Below, in pieces: positions 1 through 6,246 of a DNA stretch of 20,792 nucleotides. The notes beneath the pieces are model-generated. The model saw nothing but the letters and a program-made list of their open reading frames with translations, searched no databases and was not told the DNA's origin. The stretch is from a virus. Location: positions 1-20,792 of the IMG/VR virus record IMGVR_UViG_3300018080_000675, one strand, 5' to 3'. A program made the translations under genes and the position numbers. Each line of letters starts with the position of its first letter. The stretch's first letter is position 1.

Positions 1-1188
1 GAGTGCGAGCACTGCGGGGATGAATGGGACGACAGCCGAAGAGATAAGGCGGTGCGCGGCGGGGAGTGGCGATCCAGGTATCAAGCGTCAGGTGTCAGTG
101 ACAAGGAAACAGAAGGGGAGAGTAACGAGGGGCGAGGGACGACGGACGAAGGTGTCAGGTGTCAGGTGTCAGGTGTTAAACTTATGGAATATTTGGAGCA
201 ATACCGGCCGCTCAAGATCGGGTTTCACCTGCCGTCGTGGCTGAGCTATTTTGTGAGCCTGTCCGAGCCGGCAACCGCGTTTTTGAAAGGGCAGAATGAT
301 AAAACCAAGCTCAAGGATTTCATGAACGGCCACCGGGCCGTGCCCTGGGTCACGTATATTGTTGAGCGCAAAGAAGACGCTATTCTGGCCCTGTGCGACG
401 ACCGGCCACGGGGCCGGGTGCCGGGCCGGGGCATGGTGGCCGGAGTGGTCGCCGGCGTGGACACCCAGGATTACGGGTTCTGGTACCGGATCCGGGCGTT
501 CGGGTATGGCGGTTCTGAGCTGATCAAGGAGTCCTGGGGTTTGCGTGAGGGATATGTGACTACCTGGGGCGCCCTGGAGCAGGTTTTATTTAAGGACCGT
601 TACCTGGATGAGGACGGAAACGAATATATTATCTCGATGATTCTTCAGGACGCCCTGGGTCACCGAACGTCCGAAGTGTATAAATTCTGCCTCCAGCATC
701 GGAACCGGGTGTACCCCACATTCGGCCGGCAGAAGATGGCCCAGGCCAACACATGGACCAACCTCCAGTATTTTCCGGGCAAAAAAAAGCCCATCCCGGG
801 CGGGCTCAAGGGCGTGAACGTAAACACAAATTATTACAAGGATGAGTTATCCGGCCTGCTGGAAATATCCCCGGCCGACCCCGGGGCCTGGCACGAAAAC
901 GCGGAATTTTCCGAAGCCTACGCCCGGCACATGACCTCGGAATTCATCAATGAAAAAGGCGTATGGGAATGCCCGTCCGGAAAGGACAACCATTTATGGG
1001 ACTGCGCGGTGCTATGCCTGTGCGCCCATGACATTCTGGGCATAATGTTCTGGCCCAAGAGCGACAAAGGCCATAGATCGGATGCCGGAGCACAGCAAAA
1101 GCGCACGGTGCGGAGCCGGGGGATATCCGGCGGGGATCGGGGGGGGTTGAGAAATTATGAGCGGCCGGGGTGGCTTAGAGACAGATGA
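1..1188 (+). CDS. Phage terminase large subunit, GpA type (C-terminal part; 5' end outside window)
   Basis: This is the DNA-packaging motor and nuclease that cuts concatemers and translocates DNA into the procapsid. The frame is open from base 1, so the ATPase domain lies upstream. The first residues seen are CEHCG, the CxxC knuckle typical of GpA terminases at the ATPase-nuclease join, followed by a W-rich stretch ending GGEWRS. The conserved block resumes at RPLKIGFHLPSW. The nuclease domain shows AGVDTQ (Asp codon at 460-462, a likely metal ligand) and, near the C-terminus, NHLWDC (988-1005), as is usual in the family. The segment between GEWRS and RPLK is an in-frame heptamer-repeat insertion (separate entry) encoding roughly 30 low-complexity residues absent from typical members. 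The GTG at 52 is not a real start, because homologous sequence continues upstream of it. Whether the enzyme with the insertion is functional cannot be told from the sequence. Confidence 0.9.
   Translation, partial: ECEHCGDEWDDSRRDKAVRGGEWRSRYQASGVSDKETEGESNEGRGTTDEGVRCQVSGVKLMEYLEQYRPLKIGFHLPSWLSYFVSLSEPATAFLKGQNDKTKLKDFMNGHRAVPWVTYIVERKEDAILALCDDRPRGRVPGRGMVAGVVAGVDTQDYGFWYRIRAFGYGGSELIKESWGLREGYVTTWGALEQVLFKDRYLDEDGNEYIISMILQDALGHRTSEVYKFCLQHRNRVYPTFGRQKMAQANTWTNLQYFPGKKKPIPGGLKGVNVNTNYYKDELSGLLEISPADPGAWHENAEFSEAYARHMTSEFINEKGVWECPSGKDNHLWDCAVLCLCAHDILGIMFWPKSDKGHRSDAGAQQKRTVRSRGISGGDRGGLRNYERPGWLRDR
83..176. repeat. Degenerate 7-bp-period tandem array inside the terminase gene
   Basis: Reading in sevens from 83 gives a continuous, decaying heptamer series: AAGCGTC, AGGTGTC, then A/G-rich units such as ACGAGGG, GCGAGGG and ACGACGG, then three perfect GTGTCAG units at 152-172 and part of a fourth. 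The array keeps the terminase frame open. Short degenerate heptamers of this GTGTCAG/ACGAGGG kind usually lie between genes in some bacterial chromosomes, so a coding location is unusual. Confidence 0.85.
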
Positions 1189-1210
1189 ATATCGAATGGA
1201 GAATGTTGAT

Positions 1211-1798
1211 ATGGCAAAAATAGTAATCGATTGCGCCGATCCTAACGATTTTGCAAAAGTGGTCGAGTCAGCCGAAAAAGCCGCCGGGAGTTGCACCATT
1301 ACTTATGCGAAACAACATCTTGAAATGGTCGAAAAAGGAACATCGAAAAGCGTTAGAGAATCGGCAAGAATTATCTCGGAAGATTCGGACGAAACGCCCA
1401 AAGCGGTAGAGCATAAAATTAGTAGAGGTTTAAAAGAAATGCCCCATAGTGGGGCACAAAAACAAAGCGAGCAGCAATTGGTTGATATTAAAGAAAAAGA
1501 AAAAGAAAAAACACATACTTCTGAAAACTTGAAAAAACTTGAAAAACCCAAAACTCATGGCGGCAAACGTGAAGGCGCCGGGAGGCCTCCAAAAGAAAAG
1601 CCCACATCGCTACAGAAAAAAATTGCGAAAAATGCCCATTCCACACAATCATACGTTAGAAATTTTTCTAAAGCAGAAATGTATGCCCGTATGGCTATTC
1701 AAGACCTTGAATCTATTGAGACCAAAGATCCTGAAAGAGAAAAAGTATTAATAAGCGTCAAAGACTATATTGAAAATCGATTAAAAAAAGGAGTTTGA
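1211..1798 (+). CDS. Charged putative DNA-binding protein with GGKREGAGRPP motif
   Basis: I do not recognise a named family. The start at ATG 1211 is chosen because GGAG (1198-1201) lies nine bases upstream. Upstream in-frame starts at 1157 and 1196 would overlap the terminase or lack a good site. The 195-residue protein has a compact N-terminal part. Residues about 45-72 (SKSVRESARII...VEHKISRG) look like a helix-turn-helix of the kind seen in some ParB-associated proteins. A Lys/Glu linker follows at 92-113, then the basic turn GGKREGAGRPP at 117-127, and a helical C-terminus. GGKRxGAGRP motifs are common near the N-termini of phage terminase small subunits and other DNA-binding phage proteins. 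A perfect palindrome in the gene encodes MPHSGA (77-82). It is AT-rich, unlike the flanking phage genes. The next start follows one base after its stop and uses an AAAGGAG site inside this gene, so the two are co-translated. A role in DNA recognition is inference. Confidence 0.75.
   Translation: MAKIVIDCADPNDFAKVVESAEKAAGSCTITYAKQHLEMVEKGTSKSVRESARIISEDSDETPKAVEHKISRGLKEMPHSGAQKQSEQQLVDIKEKEKEKTHTSENLKKLEKPKTHGGKREGAGRPPKEKPTSLQKKIAKNAHSTQSYVRNFSKAEMYARMAIQDLESIETKDPEREKVLISVKDYIENRLKKGV
1440..1456. promoter_or_regulatory. Perfect 7-bp palindrome (TGCCCCA-TAG-TGGGGCA) within a coding region
   Basis: The arms TGCCCCA (1440-1446) and TGGGGCA (1450-1456) are exact reverse complements around a 3-base loop. 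It is the only GC-rich stretch in its AT-rich neighbourhood. Read on the minus strand it is followed by TTTCTTTTAAA, so it could act as an intrinsic terminator for antisense transcripts. On the plus strand there is no T-tract. It could also be an operator or a centromere-like site for the ParB-like protein encoded just downstream. Function is unproven. Confidence 0.55.
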
Positions 1799-1799
1799 T

Positions 1800-2600
1800 A
1801 TGGCTAGAAAAACATCAAATTATAATTTATTTCAATTTAACTCTATAAATCGATGTATCGCAAAGAAAACAAAAACACAAAAAAAACAATCGCAAAAATT
1901 AGAAAAATCAATGAGAAAATTCGGATTTCTTAAATCCAAGCCAATAATGGCAATTAGAAATAGGAATGGAAATTTGGTTATAAAAAGTGGGCATAATCGT
2001 TTTGAAATGGCACGAAAACTCAATATTCCTTTTTGGTATGAAGTTGAAGAACAGGATGTCCCGCTTTCTTTGTTGGAGGGCTCTTTTGATGTTTGGGATA
2101 ATGAAGACTGGCTGGTTTCTTATATAAATGATGGACGCCATCCATATATAGTTGTAAAAGAATATCGAGAAAGAACCGGAATAGGCTTACATGCATGTAT
2201 TTCAATGCTTGCGGGAGAAGGTGCCGGTTCTGGGAACTATTTAGAAGATTTTAAAGATGGAGTTTATGAGCTCGGTTGTCCAGAACATGCTAATTTGGTG
2301 GCAGATATAATTTTGCATTGTAAAAAATGCGGAATTAATTTTGCAACAATTACAGGATTTGTAAAAGGGGTTTCAAAAATTGCCAGAGTTGATGAGTTTG
2401 ATTCTGTTAGATTTAAGAAAAAAATAACATCTTATTCACATCTTATTAAAAAGCAGGCTGGCCTAAACGAATATGTTGATATGTTTGAAATGGTTTATAA
2501 CCATTGTAGCAGAGTAAAGATTCCAATTGGATTTCTTGCTAATGAAATGGCGCGAAAATTAAAAACGAGAACCTATGGAAAAATGCCTAAAAATAAATGA
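1800..2600 (+). CDS. ParB/sulfiredoxin-fold-like protein
   Basis: This 266-residue protein has an N-terminal ParB-like region. The helix KLEKSMRKFGF (33-43) leads into a strand (IMAIRNRNGNLVI), then GHNRFEMA at 64-71. That fits the G-x-x-R-x-x-x-A nucleotide-binding box II of ParB proteins (GERRxxAA in chromosomal ParB), followed by a strand ending FWYEV. ParB-family domains bind CTP and load on DNA, or in some phage proteins act as nucleases or modifiers. The remaining residues (about 95-260) are helical, with several Cys (CKKC at 174-177) and no domain I can name. No ParA is present nearby. The start at 1800 has AAAGGAG at 1787-1793. The gene overlaps the next by ATGA. Base composition is far lower in GC than the phage structural genes (for example 13 G/C in bases 1861-1920 against 44 in 3481-3540), which suggests recent acquisition. 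Partition, packaging and regulatory roles are all possible. Confidence 0.7.
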   Translation: MARKTSNYNLFQFNSINRCIAKKTKTQKKQSQKLEKSMRKFGFLKSKPIMAIRNRNGNLVIKSGHNRFEMARKLNIPFWYEVEEQDVPLSLLEGSFDVWDNEDWLVSYINDGRHPYIVVKEYRERTGIGLHACISMLAGEGAGSGNYLEDFKDGVYELGCPEHANLVADIILHCKKCGINFATITGFVKGVSKIARVDEFDSVRFKKKITSYSHLIKKQAGLNEYVDMFEMVYNHCSRVKIPIGFLANEMARKLKTRTYGKMPKNK

Positions 2601-2836
2601 AAAATATCCCCACAAAGATTGAATGTCTGAAAGGTTCGAAGGAAATTTGCAATTATGTGAAGGAAGACCCCCGTCAGATCGCCAATTTGATCGAATTTGA
2701 AGGTTTGCCCGCATGGAAACGCAATGGAGAGCGTACCTGGCGGGCACTCAATATTGACCTGTGGAACTGGATGCAGTTTCAGCGAAACAAATATCTGAAA
2801 AACACACCCAAATATATCAAGGAAAATGATCTCTAA
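2597..2836 (+). CDS. Small winged-helix/HTH DNA-binding protein
   Basis: This 79-residue protein has a pattern like that of small winged-helix proteins (excisionase, MerR-like or terminase small-subunit type). GSKEICNYV (13-21) is the first helix, DPRQIANLIEFEGLPAW (24-40) the turn and recognition helix, and a short basic wing RNGERTWRA (42-50) precedes NIDLWNWMQFQR. The GxxEIxxYL...R.I...EGLPAxKxxxxWxA layout is typical of DNA-site selection domains. It begins within the last codons of the ParB-like gene (ATGA overlap), so translation is coupled. Lying next to the terminase, it may be the small terminase subunit (normally upstream of the large subunit in lambda-like phages) or the regulator of the repeat operator just downstream. 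The sequence does not decide between these. Confidence 0.72.
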   Translation: MKNIPTKIECLKGSKEICNYVKEDPRQIANLIEFEGLPAWKRNGERTWRALNIDLWNWMQFQRNKYLKNTPKYIKENDL

Positions 2837-2850
2837 AAAATGTTGTCAAT

Positions 2851-2887
2851 ATCTTTTTAGGGTACATTTACATCTTTTTAGCATACA
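2851..2887. promoter_or_regulatory. Two 16-bp direct repeats spaced 21 bp (candidate operator)
   Basis: ATCTTTTTAGGGTACA (2851-2866) and ATCTTTTTAGCATACA (2872-2887) match at 14 of 16 positions. Their spacing is 21 bp, two helical turns, so bound proteins would sit on the same face. The second copy contains TACAAT, close to a -10 hexamer, but I see no convincing -35 at the right distance. This is the only non-coding gap in the island and lies directly upstream of the capsid operon. Confidence 0.5.
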
Positions 2888-2911
2888 ATAAGCTCGGATA
2901 AGCGTTTTTTT

Positions 2912-2970
2912 AAAAACCCCATGATATAGTCGTTGTCGAACAAGCAACCACTATGCATAGGGGTTTTTTT
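2912..2970 (+). terminator. Long hairpin with T-tract overlapping the gpW ribosome binding site (terminator or attenuator)
   Basis: AAAAACCCC (2912-2920) pairs with GGGGTTTTT (2960-2968). Further in, ATAGT (2926-2930) pairs with ACTAT (2950-2954), and GTTG (2932-2935) with CAAC (2945-2948), leaving a 9-base loop. The right arm runs into seven T residues, as in an intrinsic terminator. It also contains AGGGG (2959-2963), the only Shine-Dalgarno-like sequence for the ATG at 2971. The structure could therefore stop transcription leaving the island, hide the gpW start, or do both. Confidence 0.55.
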
Positions 2971-3186
2971 ATGGCAATAAAAACCACTTTGGAGCAATTG
3001 GAAGAAGTCCAGGCCGCAATTTCTGAGGTTATGACCAGTCAATCCTTGACTCAGCAGGGCGGCACCGTGGTCCGTGCCCAGCTTGCGGCGCTTGAGGCCC
3101 GGGAGGAAAAACTGCTGGCACGATTACGCATCGAACAGGGCACGGGCGGCCCGGCCGTGAACATCGGCACCATGAGGCGGGAATAA
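2971..3186 (+). CDS. gpW-like head-tail joining protein
   Basis: This 71-residue protein is close in length to lambda gpW (68), which closes the filled head and prepares the connector for tail attachment. The layout matches: an N-terminal helix (TTLEQLEEVQAAISEVMT), a short hairpin (QSLTQQGGTVVR), then a long helix (AQLAALEAREEKLLARLRIE) and a Gly/Pro-rich tail. Its position immediately before a lambda-type portal is the family's usual context. An in-frame ATG at 2953 lies inside a hairpin arm and lacks a ribosome binding site. ATG 2971, with AGGGG seven bases upstream, is preferred. The stop overlaps the portal start as TAATG, giving translational coupling. Confidence 0.8.
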   Translation: MAIKTTLEQLEEVQAAISEVMTSQSLTQQGGTVVRAQLAALEAREEKLLARLRIEQGTGGPAVNIGTMRRE

Positions 3187-4835
3187 TGCAGGCCGCCACC
3201 CATACCCACAAAACCCACCTGTTTTCCACGGCCGTGAATGCGATCGCGGCATCCCTGGGGCGGCCGCTTTTGTACGGTCCGGACGACAAGCCCCTCCGAC
3301 CCTCCAGCGCATACACCTATAAACGGGACGCGGCCAAACGCACCGGGAGTATGAAAAACTGGATCCCCAGACGGCTGGCCGGCCGCCAGGCCGCCGCCTT
3401 GCAGCGCGAACAGATCGTGGAGCGATCCGTGGATCTGACCAATAACGACCCGCACGCCTCGGGAATCGTGGACACCTTCGCGGCCACGGTCATGGGATCC
3501 GGCCTGGTACCCCACCCGGCCCTGGATCCGGACGTGCTGGACATGGATAAGCAGGCGGTCCGGGAGCTGCAGAAAAAACAGAGCGTGGTTTATCAAAACT
3601 GGTTTCCCTGGGCGGATGCGGGCGCGCGCATGACTTTCGGCGGTATTCAATACCTGGTCATGCGAAACCTCATGCAGTTCGGAGAATACCTGGTATTGCT
3701 GCATATGATCAAGGATCCGGTGAGGCCCTATTCCCTGGCCTGCCGGGTGATCAATCCCATGCGGCTTAAAACCCCGGTGGATAAAATCAACGATCCGAAC
3801 ATTATCGACGGTGTTGAGATCGGCAAATTCGGTGCGCCTTTGGCTTATTGGATCAAAAAATCCGGATCCGGCATTCTGGATTCTGCCCTGCCCGACATAT
3901 CTAAAAACTTTTTACGGATCGCCCCGCGTGCCGGACATCGATGGAAAGTCCTGCACGGATATATATGCCAGGACCCCGAGCAGGTGCGCGGCATGCCGTT
4001 TTTCGCGCCGGCCATGAAGTATTTGCGGGATCTAAACGATTTTCTGGACGCGGAGCTGGTGTCCAACATCGTGACCGCGGCATTTTCCCTGTTTGTGGAA
4101 ACCGGCGCCGGAGACCCCACGGACATGGCGGCCTGGCTGGCCTCACGCACGGAAACCCGGACTAACCCGGACAACGAACAAGAAGACACCCGGTACCAGG
4201 AGCTTATCCCCGGCGCCATCTTTTACGGCCGGACCGGAGAAAAGCCTCACCCCATATCCGCCCAGCGGCCGGGAACTACGTTTGAGCCCTTTACCAAGGT
4301 CATTAAAAAGGCCATTTCTTTGAGCCTGAACATCCCCTACCCCGTGTTGTTCAAGGACGTGGAAGGCGTGAATTTCGCGGGATTCCGGTCCGCCATGCTC
4401 GATGCCTGGCGGGTGTTCATGATGCACAGGACCCGTATGGGCCAGGGGTTTTGCCAGCCCGTCAACATCATGCTCCAGGAAGAAGCGTATTTGCGCGGCC
4501 ATCTGCCCAAAGACATTGCATTTTATGAAAACATGTACCAGCTTTGCCGGTGCGACTGGCGCGGATCCCCCAAGGGCGACATCGAGCCGGTCAAGGCCGT
4601 GACCGCGGATCTCAAAGCCATCGATGGCCGGATCATGACCCGGGCCCAGGCCATCACCGAGCGGGGCGGGGATTACCGGGCTACCATGGACCAGATCGAG
4701 GAAGAAGAAGAAGATTTAAAATCAAAAGGGCTTTTGCCGGAACCGGATCCCAAGAAAGCGGATAAAGAAGCAACCGCCCAGGCCGTTGTGGATAAAATGG
4801 AAGAACAAAAAATGTTGGAATCAAGGGAAGAATAA
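3186..4835 (+). CDS. Portal protein, lambda family
   Basis: This 549-residue protein is close to lambda gpB (533). It forms the dodecameric ring at the capsid vertex through which DNA enters and leaves, and it anchors the terminase and connector. Recognisable family features are the N-terminal RRLAGRQAAALQREQIVERSVDLTNNDPHASGIVDT segment in pieces, GSGLVPHP, the central W/Y-rich wing, EGVNFAGFRSAMLDAW, and an acidic, charged C-terminus (EEEEEDLKSKG, then Lys/Glu-rich residues). The C-terminal tail is disordered-looking, as in other portals. It starts in the stop codon of the gpW-like gene and ends directly against the protease start, with a single base between stop and neighbouring codons at most. 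Confidence 0.93.
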   Translation: MQAATHTHKTHLFSTAVNAIAASLGRPLLYGPDDKPLRPSSAYTYKRDAAKRTGSMKNWIPRRLAGRQAAALQREQIVERSVDLTNNDPHASGIVDTFAATVMGSGLVPHPALDPDVLDMDKQAVRELQKKQSVVYQNWFPWADAGARMTFGGIQYLVMRNLMQFGEYLVLLHMIKDPVRPYSLACRVINPMRLKTPVDKINDPNIIDGVEIGKFGAPLAYWIKKSGSGILDSALPDISKNFLRIAPRAGHRWKVLHGYICQDPEQVRGMPFFAPAMKYLRDLNDFLDAELVSNIVTAAFSLFVETGAGDPTDMAAWLASRTETRTNPDNEQEDTRYQELIPGAIFYGRTGEKPHPISAQRPGTTFEPFTKVIKKAISLSLNIPYPVLFKDVEGVNFAGFRSAMLDAWRVFMMHRTRMGQGFCQPVNIMLQEEAYLRGHLPKDIAFYENMYQLCRCDWRGSPKGDIEPVKAVTADLKAIDGRIMTRAQAITERGGDYRATMDQIEEEEEDLKSKGLLPEPDPKKADKEATAQAVVDKMEEQKMLESREE

Positions 4836-5747: not shown

Positions 5748-6246
5748 AAAAGATTATCCTGATATTACAAAGGCGCTCATAAAGGAAGGCGATGCAACCG
5801 GATATGAACGGGGATTCAAGGAAGGCGAAACCGCCGGCCACGAAAAGGCGTCCAAAGAAAATCAGGACGCGGCAAAACAAGAGGCAAAAACCGAGGAAAA
5901 AAAACGCATTCTGGGACTGGCGGTGATCCAGTTCGGAGTACAGGCGGGCGAGGCATTCAAGGCTGTTGTGGAAACCGGGGTGACCGAGGAACAATTCGCG
6001 GCCATCCGGAAAACCCAGCCCGAACAGGCCTCCACGGACAAACAAGAAGAGATGCTTGAGGCCATCCACAACGCCGGGGCCGAGGACGTGGGCCAGGGTA
6101 AGGCATCGACCGGCACGGGCAAGGACTTTATGACCCAGGTGGAAGAACATGTGGCCTTGCATAAATGTTCAAAGACGGTTGCCATGCAGGCGGTAATAAA
6201 AAAAGATCCGGCCGCCCACCAGGCATATTTGGATAGCGTGAATTAA
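5728..6246 (+). CDS. Putative capsid scaffolding protein
   Basis: This 172-residue, highly charged protein has a helical, coiled-coil-like N-terminal half (about 10-65, Lys/Glu/Ala-rich). Its C-terminal region, containing FMTQVEEHV, CSKTVAMQAVI and DPAAHQAYL, is of a type common at the end of phage protease-scaffold products. Position after an S49 protease and before decoration and capsid genes is diagnostic for the scaffold, which templates procapsid assembly and is then degraded. The start at 5728 is supported by GGAGG at 5716-5720. The sequence is too divergent to name a family, so the assignment rests mainly on context and composition. Confidence 0.72.
   Translation: MKLEDFKKDYPDITKALIKEGDATGYERGFKEGETAGHEKASKENQDAAKQEAKTEEKKRILGLAVIQFGVQAGEAFKAVVETGVTEEQFAAIRKTQPEQASTDKQEEMLEAIHNAGAEDVGQGKASTGTGKDFMTQVEEHVALHKCSKTVAMQAVIKKDPAAHQAYLDSVN

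Follow-up and report, generated by a model that had tools for sequence, protein, structure and literature searches.

A probable insertion hotspot between the terminase and a conserved small gene in a phage family, with an orphan ParB-fold gene in its cargo

In phage lambda the packaging and head genes follow the order nu1-A-W-B, and the A and W genes overlap by 4 bp, with zero intervening sequence. The IMG/VR virus record considered here, analysed over its whole length of 20,792 bases (the window) and starting at its 5′ end inside a gpA-type large terminase gene, keeps a gpA-type terminase, a gpW-like adaptor and a portal in the same order, but three genes intervene between terminase and gpW. 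A first-pass annotation, which was right about this interrupted junction, took the three genes for a single acquired and self-contained DNA-binding module. The question raised by the locus is whether these genes do belong together or whether fixed parts of a phage family stand here beside passengers. From its start the record reads partial terminase, ORF1, ORF2, ORF3, a non-coding element, gpW, portal and more virion genes, with the following features:

1 to 1188, plus strand: 3′ part of the large terminase gene (gpA type), with nuclease domain (GpA_nuclease PF20454, E 1.8e-45; phrog_15, E 3.4e-57)
1211 to 1798, plus strand: ORF1, 195 aa, probable cargo gene 1, with GGKREGAGRPP (GC3 0.31; no close relatives found)
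1440 to 1456, no strand: imperfect palindrome within ORF1, judged to be chance (inverted-repeat counts; single copy)
1800 to 2600, plus strand: ORF2, 266 aa, probable cargo gene 2, orphan ParB-fold protein (phrog_12305, E 1.6e-6; GC3 0.22)
2597 to 2836, plus strand: ORF3, 79 aa, core gene of the phage family, predicted small winged helix (8/8 lineages; model topology)
2851 to 2901, plus strand: 21-bp-spaced direct repeats (repeat search; spacing kept in eight lineages)
2912 to 2968, plus strand: long hairpin with A-run and T-run ends, in the shape of a bidirectional terminator (folding; conservation)
2971 to 3186, plus strand: gpW-like head-tail adaptor (phrog_118 head-tail adaptor, E 7.3e-6)
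3186 to 4835, plus strand: portal protein, lambda family (PF05136, E 3.3e-72)

The three open frames are tightly coupled, as annotated: ORF1 and ORF2 are separated by a gap of 1 nt and ORF2 and ORF3 overlap by 4 nt. Further in-frame ATGs lie upstream in the ORF1 frame, at 1196 and 1157. The sharply lower GC content of the three genes is also real (0.39 for ORF1, 0.33 for ORF2 and 0.42 for ORF3, against 0.52–0.58 in the neighbouring genes); GC3 is 0.31 in ORF1 and 0.22 in ORF2, compared with 0.60–0.71 in core genes, and 0.51 in ORF3. The motifs GGKREGAGRPP and GHNRFEMA are both present in the translations. Between ORF3 and gpW extend 134 bp of non-coding DNA, holding the phased repeats and the hairpin. 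The locus differs from that of lambda by an extra core gene, ORF3, and by the long non-coding element that lies between terminase and gpW; moreover, relatives of this phage carry upstream of the terminase a separate gene of small-terminase-like position and shape.

Comparison with related phages separates the parts of the locus. A first scan of viral contigs with the ORF3 protein returned a near-identical copy of the window phage and two other lineages (three contigs) at 78–79% identity. A scan with the hairpin sequence, independent of ORF3, found nine contigs, and 9/9 carry ORF3. A second ORF3 scan added the lineage L018, missed by the hairpin pattern, and this lineage, found by ORF3 alone, has the repeat/hairpin element in a slightly changed form. 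The total amounts to 11 contigs in eight lineages (window/L003, L004/L005, L006/L008, L007/L012, L009, L010, L011 and L018), so that the order terminase-ORF3-gpW is common to the window phage and seven other IMG/VR lineages. ORF3 is kept in all eight, with 61–85% identity to the window copy in the aligned set and a dN/dS between lineages of 0.05–0.22 where computable. A wider terminase survey for an outgroup phage with the same terminase and no ORF3 returned only already-known phages, and two scans of genome contigs gave no relatives of ORF2 or ORF3.

The interval between terminase and ORF3 is, instead, variable. It contains ORF1 and ORF2 in the window phage, four other gene sets elsewhere and no gene in two lineages. 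In particular, L005 has a 175-aa protein with KEKKAEY repeats and a 128-aa protein, L006 one small open frame, and L012/L007 three proteins, of 74 aa, 103 aa (MerR-type) and 58 aa (zinc-ribbon-like); a gene pair is common to L009 and L018 (phrog_4652 and phrog_5926 in L009), and the gene-free L010 and L011 have terL-ORF3 gaps of 115 and 112 bp. GC3 is 0.18–0.49 in the cargo genes and 0.54–0.77 in terL, portal and the ORF3 of other lineages, and ORF1/ORF2 are carried by one phage type only (two contigs). Comparison of the eight lineages shows, at the level of sequence, a conserved ORF3 and element next to a slot that differs or is empty. Because the slot varies while ORF3 and the element stay, ORF1 and ORF2 can be regarded as moron-type cargo and ORF3 with the element as core; the terminase-ORF3 interval is very probably a variable accessory slot beside this fixed core. 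Acquisition from elsewhere, proposed earlier for the whole set, thus finds support for ORF1 and ORF2, which have a low GC3 and are missing from sister phages, two of them with an empty site. The three genes do not form one self-contained module, as seven other lineages have ORF3 and the repeats but no ORF1/ORF2: judged by co-occurrence, the check by which the annotation itself proposed to be refuted, ORF3 and the repeats are fixed in the phage family instead of moving along with ORF1/ORF2. This corrects a reading that was plausible but wrong, and the fixed parts are now told apart from the cargo.

The morons of lambdoid and other temperate phages are recognised by their insertion between two genes that lie side by side in relatives and by a differing base composition (PMC4378225, PMC2920897). 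The slot resembles them in its differing cargo at one site and in a base composition unlike that of its neighbours; moreover, homologues of ORF2, and none of ORF1, are found in other phage classes (Flavobacterium, Enterococcus, Streptococcus) and on a Lactobacillus plasmid. It differs from them in that two coupled genes are present whose own promoter is undetected above chance (6 promoter-like sites, 5.3 expected), and in that the terminator-like hairpin is common to the whole phage family, whatever the cargo.

ORF2 is, by its sequence, a full-length, divergent member of PHROG 12305, that is, an orphan ParB-fold protein, and the ParB relationship already suspected from its motif is firmly supported. 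It matches phrog_12305 (‘ParB-like partition protein’) with E 1.6e-6 over residues 4–235, hence near full length, and scores 144.5 bits against a held-out profile of eleven PHROG 12305-type proteins from which it was left out, the best of 2000 shuffles reaching 10.7. Although only 16–28% identical to its relatives in the alignment, ORF2 keeps the P-motif GHNR at residues 64–67 (GxxR), with G64 and R67 invariant in 11 sequences, and retains the family residues F11, R18, G64, R67, W99, Y116, G154 and N234. The family alignment including ORF2 matches PDB structures of sulfiredoxin (6ky4), ParB (7bnk), Noc (7ng0) and SbnI, always confined to the nucleotide-binding domain. The relatives were reached stepwise from PHROG 12305 through successively found homologues and comprise a protein of a Lactobacillus plasmid (E 4e-5), one of a Bacteroidota-type phage (27%) and proteins of further viral contigs and of Flavobacterium, Enterococcus and Streptococcus phages. 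An AlphaFold model of ORF2 from the single sequence is unusable (pLDDT 37). Two candidates were set aside: DUF6551, a domain with CTP- or ATP-binding phage fusions, gives no more than marginal matches, to just two sequences in the family alignment, and the ParB protein of Lactococcus phage P087, considered as positional evidence, belongs mainly to other PHROGs and scores 21 bits against the ORF2 family profile. The orphan phage proteins with a ParB-CTPase fold (PMC12704722) are like ORF2 in joining a ParB-type NTP-binding domain to an unrelated C-terminal part, in lacking ParA and in being carried by mobile elements, with the difference that the C-terminal part of ORF2 has no Pfam match. Tested phage ParB-fold proteins bind CTP or ATP, and replacement of the GxxR arginine by alanine abolishes binding (PMC12704722).

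ORF1 has no close relatives in the scans of viral contigs and phages, and the HTH-like character attributed to it is unsupported by every library searched. Its residues 161–191 match weakly, with 8.5 bits, a C-tail profile of the proteins encoded upstream of ORF2 relatives. This is the best non-member score among 2260 open frames, and 3 of 5000 shuffles do as well; the likeness was first spotted by eye and tested afterwards. A resemblance of the ORF1 tail to the upstream ParB-like/HTH proteins is, at the sequence level, suggestive only. The palindrome TGCCCCATAGTGGGGCA at 1440–1456, with 7-bp arms and a 3-nt centre, had been put forward as a possible signal, and is not clearly above chance. 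The window contains 17 inverted repeats with arms of 7 and loops of 0–8 nt against 15.2 expected (5 against 1.75 when only 3-nt loops are counted), and the palindrome exists in one copy in all the loci compared, being absent from the other phages.

Most of the ORF2 relatives reside in regions of early, regulatory or replication genes rather than beside a terminase, and their neighbours are cro-like genes, SSB, primase/helicase and Erf-like or exonuclease-like genes; ORF2 differs from them by its place in the packaging/head region. With relatives mainly in early regions, ORF1/ORF2 are less likely to serve in packaging or late expression. In four cases (L029–L032; only the 3′ part in L032) a second ParB-like gene lies 8–30 bp upstream of the ORF2 relative. 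The three complete upstream proteins (L029–L031) belong to phrog_21315, phrog_4715 and phrog_12047, and all four end in a common 40-residue tail. In streptococcal phages a DUF3102-like gene is found 1–2 bp upstream (Pfam match in Javan227; similar protein in Javan14). The window phage differs from these in that the gene upstream of ORF2 is ORF1, and not a ParB-like or DUF3102-like gene. A universal partner of the ORF1 type is ruled out by the differing neighbours in Enterococcus, Flavobacterium and the Bacteroidota-type phage (L025), where the upstream neighbour is of another type.

The explanation that best accounts for these observations, and that we consider probable as a whole, is that the terminase-ORF3 interval is an insertion hotspot for moron-type genes, with ORF1 and ORF2 as the current cargo of this phage and with ORF3, repeats and hairpin as fixed parts of the family. 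ORF1/ORF2 would be expressed with the packaging genes via read-through from the terminase. ORF2, its GxxR intact, would act as a nucleotide-binding switch, with ORF1 as a partner, on DNA or on another protein; such a switch role is conceivable, with somewhat less than an even chance of being correct. Altered regulation and the countering of a host system are the two leading outlets, so that the pair would most likely be an accessory nucleotide-gated regulator or a counter-defence pair. The partnership of ORF1 with ORF2 is suggested by its position and by the weak tail match.

Other explanations have to be weighed against this one. A single acquired unit of DNA-binding proteins, serving to control late expression or to mark DNA for packaging, would agree with the translational coupling of the three genes, their position adjoining the terminase, their common GC content below that of the phage and the ParB-like genes near packaging genes in Lactococcus phage P087. 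It is very improbable, being already refuted as a unit by the seven lineages with ORF3 and element but no ORF1/ORF2; furthermore, packaging does not need the slot genes, because two lineages have none between terminase and ORF3. The maintenance of an extrachromosomal prophage by ORF2 and a centromere-like site, another early suggestion, draws on the ParB fold of ORF2 and on the fact that the phage-plasmid P1 uses a ParB. This proposal is scarcely credible: ORF2 adjoins no parA (within the 20.8 kb of the incomplete phage covered), its neighbours being terL, ORF1 and ORF3, no Pfam profile for a ParB-type HTH matches it, the ParA-binding motif [LFI]G[KR]G[LFI] (or LG[KR]GL) is absent from its translation, and no parS-like palindrome is repeated, the single imperfect one belonging to a class counted at chance level. 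By the available tests ORF2 thus has the ParB fold without being a partition ParB, since the profile and the P-motif are kept while the ParABS features are missing.

A defence or counter-defence pair directed against restriction, by analogy with two-gene GmrSD-type ParB_n systems, is on balance unlikely. Genes of this sort in morons typically occupy a cargo position and have a low GC (PMC4378225, PMC2920897), paired ParB_n proteins occur in Type IV restriction (PMC12373910), three members of the family alignment, not including ORF2, weakly match GmrSD_N (best E 0.0047), and anti-defence has been suggested for phage ParB-fold fusions (PMC12704722). On the other hand, PADLOC gives no significant match, the best, at 0.012, being to the ParB part of a methyltransferase, and no library detects a nuclease domain in either protein. 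Finally, ORF1/ORF2 could be a piece of an early region that strayed into the late operon and serves no selected function there, as its relatives occupy early regions and the pair is known from one phage type only. This is quite improbable, given that both frames are intact and tightly coupled and that ORF2, very divergent as it is, retains GxxR and the residues conserved throughout the family.

Each part of the locus is of a known kind: the cargo is moron-type, ORF2 an orphan ParB-fold protein, ORF3 a small protein that probably binds DNA, and the hairpin resembles a terminator. Novelty may lie in the repeated occurrence of a PHROG 12305 gene paired with one of DNA-binding type, together with a conserved control point made of ORF3 and repeats. 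A bolder version holds that ORF1 and ORF2 are a ‘split ParB’, in which adjacent, translationally coupled genes encode a subunit for DNA binding and a nucleotide switch with the ParB fold; this is distinctly unlikely. We give a similarly low chance to the broader claim that the succession of a ParB-like/HTH or DUF3102-like gene and a PHROG 12305 gene is a recurrent arrangement as yet undescribed as a system. PHROG 12305 gains in any case a concrete frame, that of a stand-alone ParB-fold protein often encoded after a DNA-binding-type gene, and if ORF1/ORF2 were a two-subunit nucleotide switch, the known range of the ParB fold in phages would widen.

As for the core, ORF3 had been described as a winged-helix protein, an assignment that is unconfirmed: its basis is a model of medium confidence (helix-helix-strand-strand-helix, pLDDT 64), with no significant sequence or fold match among those searched and a weak one to an HTH model (E 0.019). 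Going by this model, ORF3 would most likely be a small regulator of the winged-helix type, placed where the packaging genes end and the head genes begin. A match to the Villin headpiece was rejected, being below the cut-off and 12 residues long, and so was a second Nu1 (gpNu1-type small terminase), for which hhalign gives a probability of 0.2% against the small-terminase-like protein of the same family.

The element downstream of ORF3 contains both features that had been noticed in it, and Rfam has no match for the element. The repeat unit ATCTTTTTA lies at 2851–2859 and 2872–2880, and a third, degenerate copy, CTCGGATAA, at 2893–2901; apart from the 2851/2872 pair, no two 16-mers at a lag of 21 in the window agree at 14/16 positions or more (0.0 such pairs expected). 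The element aligns nearly gap-free across the eight lineages, most of which have TTGTCAAYATCTTTTTA, then 21 bp on CATCTTTTTA, and another 21 bp on a degenerate CRTCGGATAA. A possibility is that ORF3 binds these phased repeats and sets transcription into the head operon, although the binding itself is doubtful. ORF3 and the element may have a role in packaging or late expression; the extension of the ‘split ParB’ reading in which ORF3, the 21-bp-phased repeats and the hairpin constitute a control point specific to the lineage, where packaging and head genes meet, is improbable to the same degree as its other parts. The strictly conserved repeats and hairpin by ORF3 offer a compact target for studies of how head-gene expression is set apart from packaging in these phages.

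The hairpin at 2912–2968 has a folding energy of −24.3 kcal/mol in the window (z −6.1) and folds in 8/8 lineages, with −16 to −29 kcal/mol and z −3.5 to −6.3. It could limit read-through or mask the ribosome-binding site of gpW, as AGGGG (2959–2963), in its 3′ arm, is the only Shine-Dalgarno-like sequence before gpW. In most lineages the 5′ arm reads AAAACCCC and the 3′ arm GGGGTTTT, which abuts the gpW ATG. The arms show paired changes, ATATAGT pairing with ACTAT in the window and L012, and ATATGGT with ACCAT in L010 and L011.

Repeats with a 7-bp period are found, in frame, within the large terminase gene of several lineages and at about the same place, in the region of the protein that separates its zinc-binding part from its nuclease domain. 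The repeat units themselves vary, being of the GTCAGGT, ATATCGAATG and ACATCGAA types. Interspersed repeats of the same kind also occur at the start of the variable interval, the stretch from terminase to ORF3 that is differently filled or empty depending on the lineage, or ahead of ORF3, the 79-aa core gene 5′ of gpW. The positions in the window and in contigs of other lineages sharing the terminase-ORF3-gpW order are as follows.

Window 87-180, repeat in terminase
L005 3989-4012, repeat in terminase
L009 3496-3538, repeat in terminase
L010 4608-4630, repeat in terminase
L012 about 3816, repeat in terminase
Window 1189-1198, repeat at interval start or ahead of ORF3
L005 5088-5111, repeat at interval start or ahead of ORF3
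L006 274-297, repeat at interval start or ahead of ORF3
L010 5667-5697, repeat at interval start or ahead of ORF3

The interspersed repeats could represent the site at which cargo is exchanged by recombination. Moreover, since a short zinc-ribbon-like gene lies 5′ of ORF3 in L012 (5402-5575) and a similar one 3′ of it in L010 (about 6059-6238), gene insertion also takes place 3′ of ORF3.

One cargo pair is common to two lineages (L009 4789-6045; L018 903-2148); in L009, its genes match phrog_4652 (E 1e-48) and phrog_5926, respectively, both families of unknown function. At its C-terminal end, the cargo protein of L005 (5116-5643) resembles, by eye, an endonuclease-like protein of the viral contig L025 (6538-6981), whose gene is located near the ORF2 relative of that contig. 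This sequence likeness hints that cargo may be drawn from early-region gene pools.

A tandem pair of ParB-like genes, for which no description as a system was found in the literature, recurs in the early regions of several phage contigs, with a longer gene, encoding a protein with a conserved C-terminal tail, followed by a gene of PHROG 12305, the family of ORF2.

L029 3197-4747, tandem ParB-like pair
L030 3204-4747, tandem ParB-like pair
L031 3164-4753, tandem ParB-like pair
L032 2-1240, tandem ParB-like pair

Finally, a conserved protein of about 223 aa, with no significant family match, is encoded immediately 5′ of the terminase (2207-2878 in both L005 and L017) and is small-terminase-like in its position and coiled-coil appearance.
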